34,739 bases of DNA, from positions 1 through 34,739 of the forward strand of contig DUBX01000043.1 in the NCBI GenBank assembly GCA_012960115.1, written 5' to 3'. This stretch comes from Porticoccaceae bacterium. Lineage in GTDB: Bacteria; Pseudomonadota; Gammaproteobacteria; Pseudomonadales; Porticoccaceae. Below are positions 16,051 to 33,939 of the stretch, in pieces. The first letter of the stretch is position 1, and every line of letters begins with the position of its first letter. Made by a program: the position numbers and the translations under genes. The notes below the pieces were generated by a model. The model searched no databases and had not been told where the DNA came from. It saw only the letters and a list, made by a program, of their open reading frames with translations.

Positions 16051-17499
16051 TTGAACGAACAATTCATCCAACTAGCTGTATTTTGTACAGTCCTCGGCGC
16101 TATCGCCGTGCTTACGTACATCAAATGCAAGGGCGAAAGTAGACGTTCAACGGACTCTAATAAAGAGTATTTCCTGGCTGGTGGTGGACTAACATGGGTC
16201 TTTGTTGCCGGCTCGATCACACTCACCAACCTGAGTACAGACCAGCTAGTGGGTATGAATGGCAACCAAATGCTACTGTTGGCGCTTTGGGAGCTGTCAG
16301 GCTTTGTCGGACTTATAATTTTAGCCAAAGTCTTCTTGCCGGTGTACTACAGAAACAATTGCACCACCACCACCGAACTTTTGGAGCGACGATACAACAG
16401 TAAACATGTCCGTGCGCTTGTATCGGCGATGTTTTTGTTCATCAATGTATTTGTTTTTCAACCCGCCGTTATCTATACCGGCGCGCTCTTCATGATCTCC
16501 ATGACAGGTATCCAAGCAGACCTCTTAACCATTGCCGCCGCCTTCGCCATTTTTGGCGCAGCCTATGCGGTACTTGGCGGACTGCGCGCAGTTGCAGTGT
16601 CAGACACCTATGGCGGGGTTTTGGTGTTAGCGATGGGCCTACTAGTGGTGGTGCTCTCTCTGATGGCCATCAACTTTGACTTTAGTGGTATTCCCGCTGA
16701 GCGCCTAACCTTAATTGGTGACAGCGCCTCGCCTGTACCATGGCATACCCTATTGACCGGTATGTTTCTCATTCAAATCTTTTACTGGAGCACTAACCAA
16801 ACCATTACGCAGCGCGCTATGGCGGCGCCAACGGTTAAGGAGGCGCAAAAAGGCGTTTATGCCGCGGCTTTTATTCGCGTGGTATTTATCCCCTCCATGG
16901 TCGTTATCCCAGGGATAGTCGCATTTAAATTGTATGGCGATATCGGTGATCAGGCCTATGGCCGTATCGTTGGTGATTTACTGCCTGGCTGGTTATCTGG
17001 AATATTCGCAGCAGCCATCGCAGCAGCCGTACTTAGCTCATTTAACAGTATGGTCAACTCCTCTGCCGCCATGTACGTTTGTGACCTACACGAGGCTTAC
17101 ATCAACGAAAAACCCAATCTGCGCGTACTCAGCGGCATCGTCACAGTCATCTTTGTGATCATTGCTGTCTGTATGGTGCCGATTTACGCGCAATCTGACA
17201 GTATTATTAATTTACTACAGGAACTCTGGGGCCTAATCAGCATGCCAATACTGGCCTGCTTTGCCGTTGGGTTATTATTCCGCAACGTAGATTATCGTGC
17301 CGCCATTGCAGCGGTGATTGCGGGAGTACTCATGTACGCTTGTTTTATCTGGGTATGGATGCCCCTGCACTATATTCACATGATGTTTTTCACCTTCTTT
17401 GCCTGCGTAGCCATGGCTCTGTTCGTCAACCGATTTATTTTGGGTAATAGGGCTGAATTTATCGGCTTGGAAACAGAAGAATTACAACAAACAACGTAA
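16051..17499 (+). CDS. Na+:solute symporter (SSS family), probable galactoside transporter
   Basis: 482 residues, strongly hydrophobic throughout, with the SSS (SglT/SGLT-like) pattern. Landmarks are EYFLAGGGLTWVFVAGSITLTNLS near the N-terminus, GGLRAVAVSDT near residue 175, and YWSTNQTITQRAMAAPTVKEA near 250. These are hallmarks of the sugar branch of the family. The start is TTG at 16051, fixed by AGGAG 6 to 10 nt upstream; no better ATG exists nearby. It is cotranscribed with the GH42 gene and should import its substrate across the inner membrane using the Na+ gradient. Confidence 0.92.
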   Translation: MNEQFIQLAVFCTVLGAIAVLTYIKCKGESRRSTDSNKEYFLAGGGLTWVFVAGSITLTNLSTDQLVGMNGNQMLLLALWELSGFVGLIILAKVFLPVYYRNNCTTTTELLERRYNSKHVRALVSAMFLFINVFVFQPAVIYTGALFMISMTGIQADLLTIAAAFAIFGAAYAVLGGLRAVAVSDTYGGVLVLAMGLLVVVLSLMAINFDFSGIPAERLTLIGDSASPVPWHTLLTGMFLIQIFYWSTNQTITQRAMAAPTVKEAQKGVYAAAFIRVVFIPSMVVIPGIVAFKLYGDIGDQAYGRIVGDLLPGWLSGIFAAAIAAAVLSSFNSMVNSSAAMYVCDLHEAYINEKPNLRVLSGIVTVIFVIIAVCMVPIYAQSDSIINLLQELWGLISMPILACFAVGLLFRNVDYRAAIAAVIAGVLMYACFIWVWMPLHYIHMMFFTFFACVAMALFVNRFILGNRAEFIGLETEELQQTT

Positions 17500-27445: not shown

Positions 27446-28435
27446 ATGGATAGTGCTTTATCCCGCCATAAAAATAAATTACGTGGGATTATTGCCTGTA
27501 TCTTAGTCGCCCTAGCGTCTAAGTTTCTGTCTCTAAACTATGGCGCACCGACGATGCTATTCGCACTCATATTGGGGATGTCAGTGAATTTCCTTAATGA
27601 ATCTGAATATTCTATTCCTGGTATAGATTTTTGTTCAACGACAGTATTGCGCTTTGGGGTTATTTTGCTAGGTTCAAAAATTCTCTTTGGTGATGTCCTT
27701 GCTCTGGGTTGGGTAACCGCGTTGGTTGTGGTTGGTTGCATGTTTGCTACCATCCTGTTTGGCGCACTTATCGCCCAGGCTCTCAAACTGGACTATCGAT
27801 TTGGAATGTTATCTGGCGGCGCCGTCGGAATATGCGGTATCGCTGCAGCGATGACCTTGTCCTCGGTAATGCCCAAGAGTAAAGAGATGGAGCAATACAC
27901 CCTTTTAACCGTGATCATGGTGGCAACCTTTGGTGCCGTCGCCATGGTTTCCTATCCTGTTTTAGCAAGCTTTCTCGGTTTAAGCAGCCAGCAGATGGGT
28001 ATATTCATTGGCGGATCCATCCATGATGTATCCCACGTCATTGGCGCTGGATACTCCACCTCTGAAGACGTTGGCTATATCGCGATGATTGTTAAAATGC
28101 TGCGCGTTGCCCTACTAATACCGATAGCTTGGATCTTTCTGATAATTTTTGCCAAACAGCGCACTGCATCGGAAGGCCGCACAAAACTATTACCACCCTA
28201 CTTTTTATTGGGCTTTGTCGCGCTCGCTGTTATCAACAATATGGGATGGATACCCCCGTCCACAGCCCAAATTATGAACCAAACATCTCAAGATTGCTTC
28301 GTGATCGCCATCGCAGCTTTAGGCATGAAAACCTCTTTTAAAGGCTTGCTGGATATCGGCTGGAGGCCGGCAGCAATGGTCTTGTCTGAGAGTCTATTCC
28401 TTGGCGGATTAGTTCTTGCTTGGGTTATGCTATAA
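27446..28435 (+). CDS. YeiH/TauZ-family putative sulfite/sulfate exporter (UPF0324)
   Basis: 329 residues, about ten hydrophobic helices. The family motifs are FGVILLGSKILFGDV, LSGGAVGICGIAAAMTLSSVMP and IGGSIHDVSHVIGAGYS. In Paracoccus and other taurine or sulfolactate degraders, members named TauZ/SuyZ sit beside the desulfonating genes and are thought to export the sulfite or sulfate released. It starts 21 bp after the aminotransferase stop with an AAGGAT site, so the two are one operon. This neighbour is the main reason to read the aminotransferase as sulfonate/sulfinate-specific. Confidence 0.88.
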   Translation: MDSALSRHKNKLRGIIACILVALASKFLSLNYGAPTMLFALILGMSVNFLNESEYSIPGIDFCSTTVLRFGVILLGSKILFGDVLALGWVTALVVVGCMFATILFGALIAQALKLDYRFGMLSGGAVGICGIAAAMTLSSVMPKSKEMEQYTLLTVIMVATFGAVAMVSYPVLASFLGLSSQQMGIFIGGSIHDVSHVIGAGYSTSEDVGYIAMIVKMLRVALLIPIAWIFLIIFAKQRTASEGRTKLLPPYFLLGFVALAVINNMGWIPPSTAQIMNQTSQDCFVIAIAALGMKTSFKGLLDIGWRPAAMVLSESLFLGGLVLAWVML

Positions 28436-28488
28436 AGGTAGATCTCTACATTAACGGAAATTTCGATCCTCACTGTAAGGTACAGGCT

Positions 28489-30054
28489 ATGAACAATGAA
28501 GACGTCACCAACAGGGTTATTGGCAACAAAAGTAGCCTGCTTAAACTTAAATATTTCCTATCAACTTCTTTAAGCGTTTTTATTATTTCATTTTTTTCAC
28601 CGATGGCTTTTGCTCAACAAGGCATTGACGAATTCATTAACAATTCAGTCCAACCGATCACAAGCTTTATATCCGCTATCGTTTTTTACAGTGTGCCGGT
28701 ATTTGGCACCGACATCCCTCTGGTCGTCGCCTGGCTCGTCTTTGCCGCAGTGTATTTTACGCTGTACTTTAAATTTATTAATTTACGCGGTTTTAGTCAC
28801 GCTATTAAATTAGTCCGAGGAAGCGATTCAAATACCAAAGATCCTGGCGAGGTAACTCACTTTCAAGCACTAACCACAGCTGTCTCAGGAACCGTTGGCA
28901 TTGGTAATATTGGTGGCGTCGCGGTCGCAATATCCATAGGTGGGCCAGGCGCAACCTTTTGGATCATTGTCGCTGGCATACTAGGTATGTCGACTAAATT
29001 CATCGAGTGCACCTTAGGTGTTTTACTGCGTCGTGAGAATCCTGATGGTTCAGTCTCAGGCGGCCCCATGTATTATTTAGAATATGCCTTTGCCGAAAAA
29101 GGCTGGAATAAAGCCGGCGCCTTCATTGGCCGCTTTTATGCCCTAGGTATAATGCTTGGCTGTTTAGGCATTGGCAATATGTTCCAATCCAACCAAGCCT
29201 ACATGCAATTCGTCAATGTCACTGGCGGTACAGAAGGAAGTTGGTTTGCAGACAAGGCGTGGCTGTTCGGGCTTTTGCTCGGAGCAGTGGTTGGCTTAGT
29301 CATACTGGGGGGTATTCAAAGCATTGCCCGAGTAACCAGCAAGATCGTTCCTTTTATGGCAATACTTTACTGTGTCAGCGCCATAACTATCATTGGAATG
29401 AACTACGAAGCTATTCCTTATGCGATCAACGCCATTATTAGCGGCGCGTTCAGTCCAGAAGGCATGAGTGGTGGAGCCATTGGCGTAATGATTATCGGCT
29501 TCCAACGGGCGGTGTTTTCAAACGAGGCGGGTATCGGGTCTGCATCTATCGCCCACTCGGCTGTCCGCACAAAAGAACCCATTACTGAAGGTTATGTGTC
29601 CCTGCTAGAGCCCTTTATCGATACCGTGGTTATCTGCACCTTAACAGCGTTAGTCATCGTGACTACTTTCTACTATGAACCCTCCTTTGCGCAAGGTCTT
29701 GGGGGTATTGAAATGACATCTGCAGCCTTCGCCAGAAACATATCTTGGTCTCCTTATTTAATCGCCATTGCCGGAATGCTCTTTGCATTTTCTACGATGA
29801 TCGCGTGGGCGTACTACGGATTAAAAGGTTGGACCTACCTAGTGGGTGAAAAGGTCTGGGCGAGCAATCTGTTTAAGTTGGTTTTTTGTTTATTTGTCGC
29901 CCTAGGCTGCAGTATTCAGCTTGATGCCGTTTTAGACTTTTCAGATGCCTTGGTATTCCTAATTTGTGTGCCCAATATTATTGGCCTGTACATGTTAGCG
30001 CCCTTAGTTAAAAGAGAGCTAACCAAGTACAACCGTAAACACTGTCAGATTTGA
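28489..30054 (+). CDS. Na+:alanine/glycine-type symporter (AGCS family), 3' end replaced by transposon
   Basis: 521 residues with multiple membrane helices. The AGCS signatures are AVSGTVGIGNIGGVAVAIS and the FSNEAGIGSASIAHSAV segment that carries the substrate- and Na+-site residues. An N-terminal hydrophobic stretch ending AFAQQ precedes the transporter core. The ATG at 28489 is chosen for its AAGG site 8 to 11 nt upstream; an open frame reaches back to 28420 but overlaps the exporter stop. The natural cargo may be taurine, hypotaurine or alanine. The final residues CQI and the stop codon come from the left end of the transposon at 30043. The original ending (HIEGK-stop) is stranded at 33937-33954. 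The four or five changed residues are unlikely to harm transport. Confidence 0.9.
   Translation: MNNEDVTNRVIGNKSSLLKLKYFLSTSLSVFIISFFSPMAFAQQGIDEFINNSVQPITSFISAIVFYSVPVFGTDIPLVVAWLVFAAVYFTLYFKFINLRGFSHAIKLVRGSDSNTKDPGEVTHFQALTTAVSGTVGIGNIGGVAVAISIGGPGATFWIIVAGILGMSTKFIECTLGVLLRRENPDGSVSGGPMYYLEYAFAEKGWNKAGAFIGRFYALGIMLGCLGIGNMFQSNQAYMQFVNVTGGTEGSWFADKAWLFGLLLGAVVGLVILGGIQSIARVTSKIVPFMAILYCVSAITIIGMNYEAIPYAINAIISGAFSPEGMSGGAIGVMIIGFQRAVFSNEAGIGSASIAHSAVRTKEPITEGYVSLLEPFIDTVVICTLTALVIVTTFYYEPSFAQGLGGIEMTSAAFARNISWSPYLIAIAGMLFAFSTMIAWAYYGLKGWTYLVGEKVWASNLFKLVFCLFVALGCSIQLDAVLDFSDALVFLICVPNIIGLYMLAPLVKRELTKYNRKHCQI
30038..30042. repeat. Target-site duplication AACAC, left copy
   Basis: AACAC directly before the TGT terminus of the element; identical to 33935-33939. 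Five bp is the duplication length of Tn7, Tn5053/Tn402 and Mu-type transposases. Confidence 0.88.
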
Positions 30055-30107
30055 ATAAAGATTGTGAAAAGGATTTCTAAGATTGTGAATTTAATAAAGT
30101 TTGTGAA
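30043..30107 (+). repeat. Transposon left end, three tightly packed transposase-type sites
   Basis: Sites end at 30068 (AATAAAGATTGTGAA), 30089 (CTAAGATTGTGAA, degenerate) and 30107 (AATAAAGTTTGTGAA), spaced 21 and 18 bp. The packed layout matches the right end of Tn7. The first site overlaps the symporter stop codon. Confidence 0.82.
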
Positions 30108-30382
30108 AATCAGTGAGCAGGGAGAAGCCCCGCTTACATATATTGAATAATGTCCGCTGTCATATCATAAACGGACAATTGAATCTGTTAGAGAAAATTG
30201 ATTGTCTATGAAGGTTAAGACTCACAACGGTCTTTCCCTCGCATTCTTAGTCCGATCTCTTTGGCGGGTTTTTCCCTCATAAACCATGTTGTTATTCAGG
30301 CTTTAACCTAGCCCTATAGACGGCCCTGCAAAGTATGGTGTTGCGTTCTAAGCTCCTCCAAACTGACATGATGAAATCCCAT
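30108..30382. other. Subterminal non-coding region of the transposon
   Basis: No gene is seen. The only structure is TGTCCG (30151-30156) facing CGGACA (30172-30177) with a 15-nt loop. No transposase remnant is recognisable in any frame here. Confidence 0.5.
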
Positions 30383-31045
30383 CTAGGGCAGGTGTTGCAG
30401 CGCATCGTAGTCGTAAATTTCAATGCCACCGTAGACGCGTTTTATCCAAACTTGTGATTCCCAGCGTTTTAATATTTTATTGGTGCTTTGACGAGAAATT
30501 CCCGCTAGAGCCCCTAGCTCCTTCTGGCTGATGGTAATTTTTCCACTCGTACCGAAAGTCGTGCGTTGCAGTAATCGTTTGGCCATCCTCTGCTCTGGAG
30601 AGCAAACCAAAAATTCGTCCACAGCGCCGAAGGCTAAACGGCAGTGTGTACATAGCAAGGAGACCAATGCTTGATAGACCTCAAGATGGCGCTCGCATAA
30701 TTCCAATATTACCTGTCTTGGTAGTATGACCAACTCTGAAGGCATCGTTGTGTGGGCATCGTGAGTTCTGAGGCCACCATCCAAAATAGCAATTTCGCCA
30801 AACCATTGACCTGGTAGGATGTGGGTAAACACGATCTCGTCACCCGCAAACGTGTTAGCAAAGACCCGTACCTCGCCTTTTAGTAGGCCATAAAGACCAT
30901 CGGCTGTCTCGCCTTTGCGCTGAACGCACACATCAGCTCCAAATCGACGGATTTTCGCGGCTTTAACCAATTCTAATCTCGCGGCTTCAGGTAGCGCAGC
31001 TAGCCACTCGTTATCGGCCAAGGCTATTTTATTTGACTTACCCAT
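30383..31045 (-). CDS. Crp/Fnr-family transcription regulator
   Basis: 220 residues: N-terminal cyclic-nucleotide-binding-like beta-barrel (GLLKGEVRVFANTFAGDE, then PGQWFGEIAILDGGLRTHDA) and a C-terminal winged helix (ISQKELGALAGISRQSTNKI, about 173-192). The phosphate-cassette position has GEIAIL and a downstream Arg, so cAMP or a similar ligand is possible. There is no Fnr-type Cys cluster at the N-terminus. It is divergent from the class II aldolase gene over a 102-bp gap and is probably the local regulator of the transposon cargo. Its ribosome site (GGAA) is weak. Confidence 0.88.
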   Translation of the reverse strand: MGKSNKIALADNEWLAALPEAARLELVKAAKIRRFGADVCVQRKGETADGLYGLLKGEVRVFANTFAGDEIVFTHILPGQWFGEIAILDGGLRTHDAHTTMPSELVILPRQVILELCERHLEVYQALVSLLCTHCRLAFGAVDEFLVCSPEQRMAKRLLQRTTFGTSGKITISQKELGALAGISRQSTNKILKRWESQVWIKRVYGGIEIYDYDALQHLP

Positions 31046-31070
31046 TATATTTGTTCCGTAAAGCGCTTAT

Positions 31071-31122
31071 TTAGATCGATTGTAAACTGGTTGACAGTTC
31101 CTCGCACGCGAAGCGCGATAGG
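31071..31122 (+). promoter_or_regulatory. Possible promoter/operator of the transposon cargo operon
   Basis: TTGACA at 31091-31096 is a good -35 box, but the nearest -10-like bases (GATAGG, about 31117) give a long 20-bp spacer, as expected of an activator-dependent promoter. Just upstream, TTTAGAT-CGA-TTGTAAA (31071-31087) is an imperfect dyad placed where a Crp/Fnr-type activator would bind. Confidence 0.3.
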
Positions 31123-31147
31123 GTGTCATTTAATTAGGAGGCTCACT

Positions 31148-31927
31148 ATGTTATCACCAACTCAGAACACCGAATTCACCGAACAGACTAAACAACAGGT
31201 GAACGACAAAGAATGGCAGCTGCGCGTAGATCTGGCTGCCGCTTACCGTTTGGTTGCTGCCTACGGCTGGGATGACCTGATCTTCACCCACATATCTGCT
31301 CGGGTTCCCGATAGCGACGGCCATTTTCTAATCAATCCTTACGGTTTTCTGTTTGAAGAAATCACGGCGAGCAGCCTGGTGAAAGTCGATGCAGATGGCA
31401 ATAAAATACTGGAATCCCCTTATGAGATTAATCCTGCTGGCTTCACCATCCACAGCGCTATCCACTCAGCGCGGGAAGACGCCCACTGTGTGATGCACAC
31501 CCACACCCCTAATGGAGTGGCCGTCTCTGCTCAGCAAGAGGGGCTACTACCGCTATCACAACAATCACTATTTGCGCTGTCTGGCTTGAGCTACCACGCC
31601 TACGAGGGCGTTGCCTTGCGGGAAGACGAAAAACCACGCCTTGTGGCAGACCTTGGGATAAATAATTTCATGATCTTACGTAATCATGGTCTGCTAACTT
31701 GCGCGCCAACGGTAGCGGATGCGTTTCTTGCTATGTATATACTTGAATCGGCTTGTGACATCCAAGTTAAAGCCTTGAGCGCTAAAGAACTGACCCGGGT
31801 GCCCAGTGATATCGTCAGCACCATGCGAGCCCAGGCGAGTGCTGTGACTCGCAATATGGGGGGGCTGCTGGCCTGGCCGGCGCTGTTGCGCAAACTCGAT
31901 CGCGTCGATTCTTCTTACCGAAACTAA
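31148..31927 (+). CDS. Class II aldolase/adducin-family protein
   Basis: 259 residues. The zinc site is visible as H117-x-H119 in MHTHTPNG plus the later His of LRNHGLL. GWDDLIFTHISARVPD and FLINPYGFLFEEITASS are the family substrate loop. Members include fuculose-phosphate aldolase and adducin-like proteins; lack of sugar-phosphate-specific signatures and similarity to the FucA-related adducin-like group leave the substrate open. The ATG at 31148 is chosen because AGGAGG (31136-31141) lies 6 nt upstream; an in-frame GTG at 31091 has no such site. First gene of the forward cargo operon. Confidence 0.88.
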   Translation: MLSPTQNTEFTEQTKQQVNDKEWQLRVDLAAAYRLVAAYGWDDLIFTHISARVPDSDGHFLINPYGFLFEEITASSLVKVDADGNKILESPYEINPAGFTIHSAIHSAREDAHCVMHTHTPNGVAVSAQQEGLLPLSQQSLFALSGLSYHAYEGVALREDEKPRLVADLGINNFMILRNHGLLTCAPTVADAFLAMYILESACDIQVKALSAKELTRVPSDIVSTMRAQASAVTRNMGGLLAWPALLRKLDRVDSSYRN

Positions 31928-31942
31928 CTGAGCTCACACGCA

Positions 31943-32245
31943 ATGAAAAGATTCAACAGTTTCAAGGAATTTTATCCCTTTTATTTGTCGGAGCATTCTA
32001 ACCGCACCTCAAGGCGCTTGCATTTTACTGGCTCGTGGCTAGTGCTTGCTTGTATCACTTTCAGTTTTTGGCGTGCGAGCCCCTTGTACCTTTTGATGAC
32101 GCCGGTTGTGGGTTACAGTCTTGCTTGAGTGGGACATTTTTATTACGAGCACAACAAACCCGCAACCTTCCAGTACCCTATTTACAGCTTGTTAGGTGAT
32201 TGGAAAATGTTTTTAGATATTCTAGTAGGCAAAGTGAAAATTTGA
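31943..32245 (+). pseudogene. Mpo1-like/DUF962 gene interrupted by one in-frame TGA
   Basis: The first 61 codons (FYPFYLSEHSNRTSRRLHF, matching the family Y-x(3)-H-x(4)-N...H pattern) stop at TGA 32126-32128. The same frame then continues for another 38 codons with the family's second half, VGHFYYEHNKPATF and YSLLGDWKMFLDIL, to a normal stop at 32243-32245. A Trp (TGG) is expected at the stop (SLA-W-VGHF), so a single G-to-A change explains it. Full length would be 100 residues, normal for the family. Yeast Mpo1 is an Fe(II) dioxygenase of 2-hydroxy fatty acids; the lost half holds conserved His residues. It starts 15 bp after the aldolase and ends 1 bp before the hydrolase gene. Confidence 0.82.
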
Positions 32246-32246
32246 T

Positions 32247-33176
32247 ATGAATCTGTCAACTAACGATAAAGCTCCGGGTATAAAAACCACAGCCTATGCT
32301 GAACACAAGTCAGTGACAGTTAATGATGCAGATTATGTCTATTTAGAAGCGGGTGGTGGTGACACGGTATTTCTGTTGCACGGTTATCCTGACAACGCGT
32401 ATTCATGGGAACATCAGATTCGCTATCTCAGCAAAGCAGGCTACAGGGTGATCGCACCCTTTTTACGCGGGTATGCGCCCACAACCACACACGGAAAAGC
32501 TTACTTTGATCGCGCAACACTTGCCCGCGACGTCGCAAGTTTGATTGATGTTATTAACAACGGGGAGCCTGTCTTTTTGGTGGGCCAAGATTGGGGGGCA
32601 GCAGTCAGTTATGGTGTGTTGGGGGCCTATCCTGAGAAAATTCGCCGTGCCCTGGTGCTTGCGGTTCCTCACCCCGTGGAAGTTGTGCGGACCCTGAAGC
32701 GCTCACCGCGACACATTATCCGCTCCTTTCATTGGTTTTTATTTCAGCTCCCTTGGCTGCCCGAGCGCATTATTCGTTTCAATAAGGGCAGGTTTCTACG
32801 CTTTCTGTGGAACCTTTGGTCCCCCAATTTTAACGATCATGAACACCTTGACCACATCGTAACAACCCAACTGACAGGAAGCGTTGTGGAAGACACAATC
32901 GCATACTACAGAGCGGCCACTCAACTGTCATATCGGGACCCTGCGCTCAAACCAATTTTCGACCGACTCAACGACATCATTACAAAGCCAACTCGAGTGC
33001 TTTGCGGAACCCGAGACATGCGTAAAGAGATGTTGCCAAGGGCCCGGGACTTATTCGCAGCCAGTGCTGACTACCAATTCGGCTTGATCGAAGGTGCTGG
33101 ACACTTTCTCCATAGGGAAAAACCCGCCTCGGTCAACCGCGAAATTGTTGAGTGGTTTAAGCCCCAGGACAACTGA
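32247..33176 (+). CDS. Epoxide-hydrolase-like alpha/beta hydrolase
   Basis: 309 residues, cytoplasmic. The oxyanion motif HGYPDNAYSWEHQ is near 45-57, and the nucleophile is Asp115 in VGQDWGAAVSYG, the Asp-elbow of epoxide hydrolases and haloalkane dehalogenases. The catalytic acid is probably the Asp in CGTRDMRKE, and the His is in GAGHFLHREKP. A helical cap (about 140-220) holds AYYRAATQL. The HGYP motif favours epoxide hydrolase over dehalogenase. It begins 1 bp after the DUF962 frame, so it was translationally coupled; its own ribosome site (AAAGTGA) is weak, and the nonsense codon upstream could lower its expression. Confidence 0.87.
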   Translation: MNLSTNDKAPGIKTTAYAEHKSVTVNDADYVYLEAGGGDTVFLLHGYPDNAYSWEHQIRYLSKAGYRVIAPFLRGYAPTTTHGKAYFDRATLARDVASLIDVINNGEPVFLVGQDWGAAVSYGVLGAYPEKIRRALVLAVPHPVEVVRTLKRSPRHIIRSFHWFLFQLPWLPERIIRFNKGRFLRFLWNLWSPNFNDHEHLDHIVTTQLTGSVVEDTIAYYRAATQLSYRDPALKPIFDRLNDIITKPTRVLCGTRDMRKEMLPRARDLFAASADYQFGLIEGAGHFLHREKPASVNREIVEWFKPQDN

Positions 33177-33317
33177 CTTTCTATACAATTGATATTACTG
33201 GTTAATTTGTTGTGGCGATCATAACTCTCAGCTTCATTACAGGAGCTGAAACAGAAATATTCAATAGCCAATGAGTGCTAAGACTTTCATATTAATACAT
33301 TGCTAGAGGCATAAATA

Positions 33318-33683
33318 GTGATAAAAATGGTAATGTGTATCACCAGACGTCCAGGCCTCTCGCGGGAAGAGTTCAGCGACTACTGGCTAAATAGTCATGG
33401 ACCACACTTTGTAAAAGTTGCAAAAGACTATCGCGCCAAAAAGTATATACAAAGTCATACGATAGATTCACAATTAAATTCCATGGTGCGTGATATCAGA
33501 GATATGACCAAAGAATATGACGGAATAGCCGAAATATGGTGGGAATCGGAAGACGATTATATTCGAGGGCTCAATTCGCCCATGATGAAAAAGCATGGTG
33601 CAGAATTTCTTGCCGATGAAACAGAATTTGTAGACCTAGAAAATTCCACAGTATTCTTTACCGTCGAACATGAGTTAATTTAG
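33318..33683 (+). CDS. EthD-domain protein
   Basis: 121 residues, ferredoxin-like dimeric alpha/beta-barrel fold. The family core is visible: CITRRPGLSREEFSDYWLNSHGP at the N-terminus and a late AEIWWESEDDY segment. EthD proteins accompany degradation of ethers, aromatics and polyketide-like rings as small enzymes or helpers, and their active role is often unknown. The GTG at 33318 is preferred over the ATG three codons later because AGAGG is 9 nt upstream. It is the last cargo gene, 141 bp after the hydrolase. Confidence 0.85.
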   Translation: MIKMVMCITRRPGLSREEFSDYWLNSHGPHFVKVAKDYRAKKYIQSHTIDSQLNSMVRDIRDMTKEYDGIAEIWWESEDDYIRGLNSPMMKKHGAEFLADETEFVDLENSTVFFTVEHELI

Positions 33684-33799
33684 TGATCATTTAGGCCCTT
33701 ACACGCCTCTTAATGACACTGAGCCGCCCACGCTCTCAAAGAACCTTGTGTTTTTTGTGGCTGTTTTTTGACAAGGGCCCGACAAACTGACGCTCTATA

Positions 33800-33934
33800 T
33801 TCACAAACTTTATTAAAAATATTTACATGCTCAGATCATTCAAACTTGTTAATTCACAATCTTTATTAGGATTTTTAAACCCCAGATTGCCGCCTCCATA
33901 GCCGGGAATTCACAATCTTTATTCAAATCTGACA
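33800..33934 (-). repeat. Transposon right end, three widely spaced transposase-type sites
   Basis: On the minus strand: AATAAAGATTGTGAA at 33909-33923 (inside the terminal repeat), AATAAAGATTGTGAA at 33853-33867, and AATAAAGTTTGTGAA at 33800-33814, spaced 56 and 53 bp. This spaced layout matches the left end of Tn7. The stretch 33684-33799 between EthD and this end shows no gene. Confidence 0.83.
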
Positions 33935-33939
33935 AACAC
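33935..33939. repeat. Target-site duplication AACAC, right copy
   Basis: AACAC immediately after the ACA terminus, identical to 30038-30042. It belongs to the same codon register (AAA CAC) as the symporter gene. Confidence 0.88.

Follow-up and report, generated by a model that had tools for sequence, protein, structure and literature searches.

Element and its boundaries

The DNA analysed here (the window) is a stretch of 34,739 nucleotides from a Porticoccaceae bacterium (assembly GCA_012960115.1, contig DUBX01000043.1). Near its right-hand side, a segment of 3,892 bp (positions 30043-33934) carries a small operon between perfect 26-bp inverted termini (TGTCAGATTTGAATAAAGATTGTGAA), one at the gene-proximal end, which is of the right-end (RE) type (30043..30068, plus strand), and one at the distal end (33909..33934, minus strand). 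A copy of AACAC adjoins it on each side: the left copy (30038..30042) falls in the 3'-terminal part of a gene for a sodium:alanine symporter, and the right copy is at 33935..33939. This segment, which we read as a transposon, had been described from the sequence alone in an original prediction, and the termini, the length and the AACAC duplication given there are right to the base. No perfect inverted repeat in the window is longer than these 26 bp; once the element is taken out, the maximum falls to 15 bp, and 20 first-order Markov shuffles of the window had longest perfect inverted repeats of 14-20 bp.

Both ends carry inward-pointing repeated sites, as had been predicted, and we located five full cores and one partial site. 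The core AATAAAGWTTGTGAA occurs at 30054(+), 30093(+), 33923(-), 33867(-) and 33814(-). On the plus strand these form a compact array of TnsB-like sites (30043..30109, with sites at 30054-30068 and 30093-30107 and the partial one at 30078-30089); on the minus strand they form a spaced array of the left-end (LE) type (33800..33934, with sites at 33909-33923, 33853-33867 and 33800-33814, spaced by 56 and 53). Tn7 likewise has a compact right array and a spaced left array. The element thus has inward TnsB-like arrays at both ends, a compact RE and a spaced LE, together with a 5-bp target duplication and TG..CA ends, and the two complete relatives described below are laid out alike. In the proposed mechanism, a TnsB protein would bind and cleave these ends. 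When the pattern AATAAAGATTGTGAA was allowed up to 2 mismatches, it matched 15 places in the own genome (2.43 Mb, 54 contigs) and its reversed control matched 11, so matches at that level are chance-like. At 0-1 mismatch there were six, namely the five in the element and one at C43:115718-115732 in a second end 82 kb away; within this genome the core at 0-1 mismatch is therefore confined to ends of this family.

To place the insertion, the element and its flanks were searched against 50 genomes of the genus, with at most six candidates scored per genome. In a sister genome (G026) the empty site reads CGTAAACACATCG with a single AACAC; the left flank is 99% and the right flank 97% identical, and the two flank matches meet exactly at the duplication. 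The boundaries are therefore proven exact, as claimed originally. A further genome (G030, flanks 92% and 88% identical) is also contiguous at the site with a slightly different 5-mer. Among the candidates scored, the other 49 genomes had no long match within the element and only pieces of 80-116 bp at 70-77% identity. An empty site in a sister strain had been set beforehand as the test of the prediction; it joins at AACAC, and among the candidates scored in the genus no second long copy of the element turned up. The segment is the product of a real, recent transposition.

The target gene (AgcS family, 28420..30054, plus strand) has its last four residues, IEGK, replaced by CQI. Since the insertion swaps only these four residues, it is by position probably close to harmless. 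The compact end is oriented toward the symporter gene, as the RE end is oriented toward gcvP in related elements, and this copy sits in the last codons of the symporter, not at gcvP.

These observations bear on one alternative, in which an autonomous Tn7-like element inserted here and then lost its tns genes by internal deletion, leaving a dead remnant. Loss of the transposase through deletion is common. In this case, however, the ends, the arrays and the duplication are intact, and the flanks still match the empty site at 97-99% identity, so that little time was available for such a loss.

Genes carried by the element

Five cargo genes lie between the ends. A Crp/Fnr-type regulator (30383..31045, minus strand; cNMP_binding and HTH_Crp_2 domains) is followed on the plus strand by a class II aldolase/adducin family protein (31091..31927; PRK07044 subfamily, with 389 bits where the cut-off is 207), an Mpo1-like (DUF962) gene with an in-frame stop, each half of which separately matches PF06127 (31943..32245), an alpha/beta hydrolase (32247..33176) and an EthD-family protein (33318..33683). 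The cargo had been called metabolic or catabolic, and a catabolic role may be surmised from the gene identities. Among the matches listed, an aldolase on a Pseudoalteromonas plasmid is annotated next to a DUF962 gene, so this pairing exists outside the element. As to the origin of the cargo, aldolase relatives tell us little, whether those at 5 loci in viral contigs (41-49% identity) or those on plasmids (328 records; 56-62% among the matches listed).

The element encodes no TnsA, TnsB, TnsC or TniQ/TnsD, which agrees with its description as transposase-less. Since it has no tns gene and its genome no cognate TnsB (see below), we file it as a non-autonomous derivative, one that would operate in the manner of a Tn7-like element, and not as a complete member of the Tn7-like elements.

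Complete relatives with the same ends

A search of related genomes for the same ends and for an autonomous element, proposed originally as a check, found complete tnsA-tnsB-tnsC-tniQ-tnsD elements bounded by ends of the same type in two genomes, which bears out the Tn7-like assignment. In Neptuniibacter sp. N1Y108-4-Z (G112), a 46.4-kb element (C4:151114-197502) with the duplication TGAAA encodes TnsA, TnsB (734 aa), TnsC (476), TniQ (330) and TnsD (501); among its cargo, genes of metal-efflux type and a fragment resembling a serine recombinase were recognised by eye. In the metagenome-assembled genome (MAG) Ch67 (G115), genes for TnsA, TnsB (737), TnsC (467), TniQ (330) and TnsD (493) adjoin one end on contig C51, and another end lies on C81, with ACATC at both. 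The two ends (L105:18800-19746 and L113:200-340) both abut parts of an integrase gene, of which the phage-integrase domain is on C51, and the N-terminal part on C81 and the integron type were read by eye. Because both ends abut integrase parts and share ACATC, a single element, apparently inserted in the integrase gene, probably runs from one to the other.

Between the two elements, TnsA, TnsB and TnsC are 58-60% identical, TniQ 46% and TnsD 39%; divergence is thus greatest in TnsD, which presumably selects the target. The best solved-structure matches of the Ch67 proteins are those of canonical Tn7: TnsB with 7pik (1.7e-31), TnsC with 7mbw (1.6e-23) and TnsA with 1f1z (8.7e-5). Ch67 TnsD matches PF15978 at 1.3e-20 and also the TniQ model, TnsC scores above the TniB cut-off, and the small TniQ has 24 bits, just under the Pfam cut-off of 27. 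At 0.01, Pfam had no model that matched TnsA or TnsB, and NCBIfam had none for any of the five proteins.

The original prediction, which called the element Tn7-like, had named Tn7, Tn5053/Tn402 and Mu-type transposases together as sharing the 5-bp duplication and TG-type ends. As the relatives with matching ends encode TnsA and TnsD, this can be narrowed to the Tn7 clade, and Tn5053/Tn402 falls away. A rival reading would nevertheless place the element in the Tn5053/Tn402 (TniABQ) family as a relative of defective class 1 integrons. TG..CA ends are typical of Tn5053/Tn402 too, the Ch67 element sits in an integrase gene that looks of integron type by eye, and the G112 element has its serine-recombinase-like fragment; 5-bp duplications and inverted repeats of about 25 bp are also in common (PMC7765201). 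On the other hand, TnsB, TnsC and TniQ are accompanied by TnsA and TnsD in the elements whose ends match, the best structural matches of TnsA, TnsB and TnsC are canonical Tn7, the two ends carry different arrays, and gcvP-adjacent ends recur. Where machinery accompanies the same ends, it is not of the tniABQR kind, both complete relatives having TnsA and TnsD, and we consider membership of Tn5053/Tn402 very improbable. The targets seen in the family are gcvP 3' ends, the symporter gene end and the integrase gene (no search was aimed at res sites).

Distribution of the ends and an apparent attachment site at gcvP

An exact scan with TGTCNNNTTNNAATAAAGNTTGTGAA over the genome_contigs collection (84,980 species) returned 17 stretches in 13 genomes, that is, one Rhodospirillaceae MAG and 12 gammaproteobacteria (four Neptuniibacter, two Cellvibrionales, Pseudoteredinibacter, Oleispira, Glaciecola, Motiliproteus, Pseudoalteromonas and the MAG Ch67), most of whose genera we take to be marine. 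In the own order, 7 of 390 sampled genomes matched the ends at up to 1 mismatch: four already in the set of 13, the own genome, and two new ones, G191 and G389. The total is thus 16 end-bearing genomes. Reversed-pattern controls gave 0 among the matches listed for the 112 (family), 13 and 390 genomes. Matches to the end pattern at 3 mismatches in four genomes of the family (G001, G002, G077 and G083) were isolated single sites in ordinary genes and were taken as chance.

In 11 of the 16 genomes a family end lies directly downstream of gcvP. The gap between the gcvP stop and the end is 1, 6, 6, 8, 9, 10, 11, 12, 12 and 12 nt in ten of them, and 51 nt in N. marinus. The GcvP domains were confirmed by Pfam at the N. 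marinus locus (L097), and when that GcvP was run by tblastn against 20 other loci, it matched exactly the ten where a match was expected. Over 67 bp, the compact array of the window element (30043-30109) shares 98.5% identity with the end next to gcvP in Cellvibrionales bin.36 (L112). The 3' side of gcvP is apparently the main attachment site of the family, and cognate TnsB was found in only 1 of these 11 genomes (G112). Between the gcvP stop and the N. marinus element lies a fragment resembling another family end (L097, ~17301-17351), which suggests repeated insertion at the site.

Two of the elements at gcvP, both in Neptuniibacter (~14.7 and 14.4 kb), are two-ended and had no tns gene by tblastn. 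The N. marinus element carries, by Pfam, an FMO/Baeyer-Villiger-like monooxygenase, an alpha/beta hydrolase, a sigma-54 regulator, DUF1302, DUF1329, MMPL and AraC proteins, and the N. pectenicola element resembles it by eye.

The second end in the own genome, 12 nt after the gcvP stop, is adjoined by genes for a Rieske oxygenase and a PaaX-like protein (L007:8164-10744; G000:C43 ~113163-115743). In Cellvibrionales bin.40 a pair of ends (C13:2729-5232) encloses the same Rieske/PaaX cassette, with 94% identical DNA (1,341 and 1,127 bp), whereas GcvP of the two genomes is 61% identical over 719 residues. We read this as horizontal movement. A cassette so similar, beside such ends in two such lineages and with no tns gene in the stretches examined, argues against the deletion remnant. 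The bin.40 copy has no matching duplication, and another left end follows exactly 5 bp further (L104:5207-5263), so that the ends stand back to back as if elements had stacked at a shared target duplication. In the sister genome G026 the cassette was not found in the gcvP neighbourhood, a 3.4-kb contig.

Upstream of the Rieske gene in the own genome are short tandem repeats of the ATGTGTA/ATGTTTA type (L004:60-190; G000:C43 ~114256-114386), and the alignment of the two cassettes breaks at these repeats (L007:9291-9369).

Search for a helper

PF09299 missed the cognate TnsB, for which no Pfam or NCBIfam model scored at 0.01, and the Ch67 TnsB protein was used as the query instead. Only 2 of the 16 end-bearing genomes have a cognate TnsB, namely G112 (58% identity) and Ch67 itself. 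Carriers without it thus outnumber those with it by 14 to 2, most of the assemblies being drafts and three or four of the 16 matches possibly due to chance; among the 14 is G191, a single contig and 100% complete, which has two ends and no TnsB match. This speaks against a deletion remnant. One of the G191 ends is at gcvP, and the other lies beside a cluster of an aromatic-ring-hydroxylase-type FAD monooxygenase, a fumarylacetoacetate (FAA) hydrolase, a short-chain dehydrogenase/reductase (SDR), a TonB receptor and a sulfatase; the far ends of both copies were not securely found. The weaker matches to Ch67 TnsB in G114, G123 and G124 (29-30%) were read as other transposases, as were PF09299 matches in G114, G116, G123 and G124.

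Among 72,556 plasmids, TnsB matches occurred in 812 records, all below 60% identity and below 30% in the 25 listed, and the 88-bp left end, searched against plasmids, matched 18 records, with a best E of 0.7 and none covering 80%. In viral contigs no such ends were found and no TnsB relative was confirmed by a scan that reaches close relatives only. In the own genome, a search for the rve domain gave one match, on contig C31, which was rejected as a helper because it belongs to an insertion sequence (IS)-type remnant, judged by eye from the open reading frames. Around it, pieces of a LysR-type regulator gene appear by eye to flank the transposase remnant (L006:6500-9100; G000:C31).

Weighing the readings

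We conclude that the segment is very probably a non-autonomous Tn7-clade transposon that carries cargo alone and is mobilised in trans. The following points weigh against this conclusion. No cognate TnsB was found in any of the 112 genomes of the family, the own genome included; none of the genomes in that search served as a positive, though the same query detects the 58%-identical TnsB elsewhere. The rve search is blind to the cognate TnsB, because this protein matches no Pfam model. With 54 contigs and 94% completeness, the own assembly leaves room for a helper in a gap or on a lost plasmid. The flanking 5-mers of the 14-kb Neptuniibacter elements and of the 2.5-kb Cellvibrionales cassette do not match, so that their boundaries have been altered or the insertions stacked. 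Three of the 16 genomes may be chance matches (G119, inside a long open reading frame; G122, the Rhodospirillaceae MAG; G389, on a 3.2-kb contig), and the match in G121, kept in the 16, is a single site that may be chance as well. Finally, the Mpo1-like cargo gene is broken, no far end could be recognised for the gcvP copy in the own genome, and this copy alone cannot tell whether loss of the tns genes preceded or followed insertion. The broken gene and the missing far end also speak for a deletion remnant; set against the evidence given above, we consider that reading unlikely.

A helper elsewhere, as implied by the original prediction, is plausible in view of the two complete elements, and the own genome and the 111 others of the family yielded none. 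In a further alternative, a functional helper resides in an unassembled part of the same genome, in a gap or on a plasmid, and the element is mobile within the strain. The incompleteness of the assembly leaves room for this, but the complete genome of G191 likewise lacks a cognate TnsB, the plasmid matches to TnsB were all below 60% identity, and the viral scan, which reaches close relatives only, confirmed none. In our judgement this alternative has a small chance of being right.

Our preferred reading, transposition in trans, would proceed as follows. The element has two ends with TnsB-like arrays and a small metabolic operon in place of transposition genes. TnsA-TnsB-TnsC from an autonomous relative, like those of N1Y108-4-Z or Ch67, would bind the ends and excise the element by cut-and-paste chemistry, and the same machinery would paste it into the last codons of the symporter, leaving the 5-bp duplication. 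The main attachment site of the family, just past the gcvP stop, would presumably be picked by TnsD, and other landing sites, such as the symporter here and the integrase gene in Ch67, may be reached via a second, less specific target choice made by the small TniQ or another factor.

We put roughly even weight for and against a broader proposal, that gammaproteobacteria, many of marine genera, share a pool of gcvP-homing, cargo-only Tn7-clade transposons that spread metabolic cassettes (Rieske oxygenase/PaaX, Baeyer-Villiger-type/MMPL and aldolase/hydrolase/EthD), with rare autonomous elements as shared helpers. If this is true, searches that begin with tns genes would miss most such Tn7 traffic. 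Most of the cargo seen is metabolic. The family provides a route, open to testing, by which metabolic genes could spread among these bacteria; the matching machinery in a few other bacteria and the recurrence of similar ends beside gcvP suggest that elements with passengers alone contribute to such transfer. The complete relatives and the window element also supply a concrete helper/cargo pair for laboratory testing.

Comparison with known systems

No paper on Tn7-like elements with gcvP or glycine dehydrogenase, or on TnsD with gcvP, appeared in the literature searched, a body that leaves out most subscription journals; its titles and abstract openings likewise held no match for non-autonomous, transposase-less or miniature Tn7, and none, among the matches listed, for Tn7-like elements with catabolic, marine or steroid themes. 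A survey of 6,549 Tn7-like elements gathered the sequence around tnsB homologs (PMC8649781), and cargo-only elements would therefore lie outside its reach.

The element and its family share with Tn7 and Tn7-like transposons the site arrays at both ends (four and three sites in Tn7; PMC8649781) and the 5-bp duplication; most family members also have an end just downstream of a conserved gene, this copy lying in the symporter gene, and relatives with the same ends encode TnsA, TnsB, TnsC, TniQ and TnsD. In contrast to Tn7, the window element has no tns gene, and the main attachment site of the family is apparently at gcvP instead of glmS. Dual TniQ-TnsD loci are known among Tn7-like elements, including some CRISPR-associated transposons (PMC10293859), and the complete relatives described here similarly pair a small TniQ (330 aa) with a larger TnsD-type protein (493-501 aa). 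Unlike the CRISPR-associated ones, the G112 element had no cas gene that could be recognised by eye among the starts of its open reading frames, no search aimed at cas having been made.

Non-autonomous elements with intact ends are known in other groups. The Tn3-derived inverted-repeat miniature elements (TIMEs) and mosaic non-autonomous transposons also have paired ends, no transposase and possible passenger genes (PMC4133298), but their transposase family is unrelated. Closer are the class 1 integrons and the Tn6606-type Tn5053/Tn402 elements, which share intact ends, 5-bp duplications and an incomplete transposition module: In0 and In2 have kept just tniA and are moved by functions that Tn502 supplies in trans, and Tn6606-type elements are mer- and tni-defective and may carry catabolic open reading frames (PMC7765201). 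In place of TnsA/TnsB and gcvP, these have transposases of the Tn5053/Tn402 kind, target res sites and are resolved by a resolvase. The statement that non-autonomous elements of this kind are little described was thus overstated for the superfamily as a whole: defective elements moved in trans are already known for Tn402/Tn5053, whereas the Tn7-clade form with ends at gcvP did not turn up in the literature searched.

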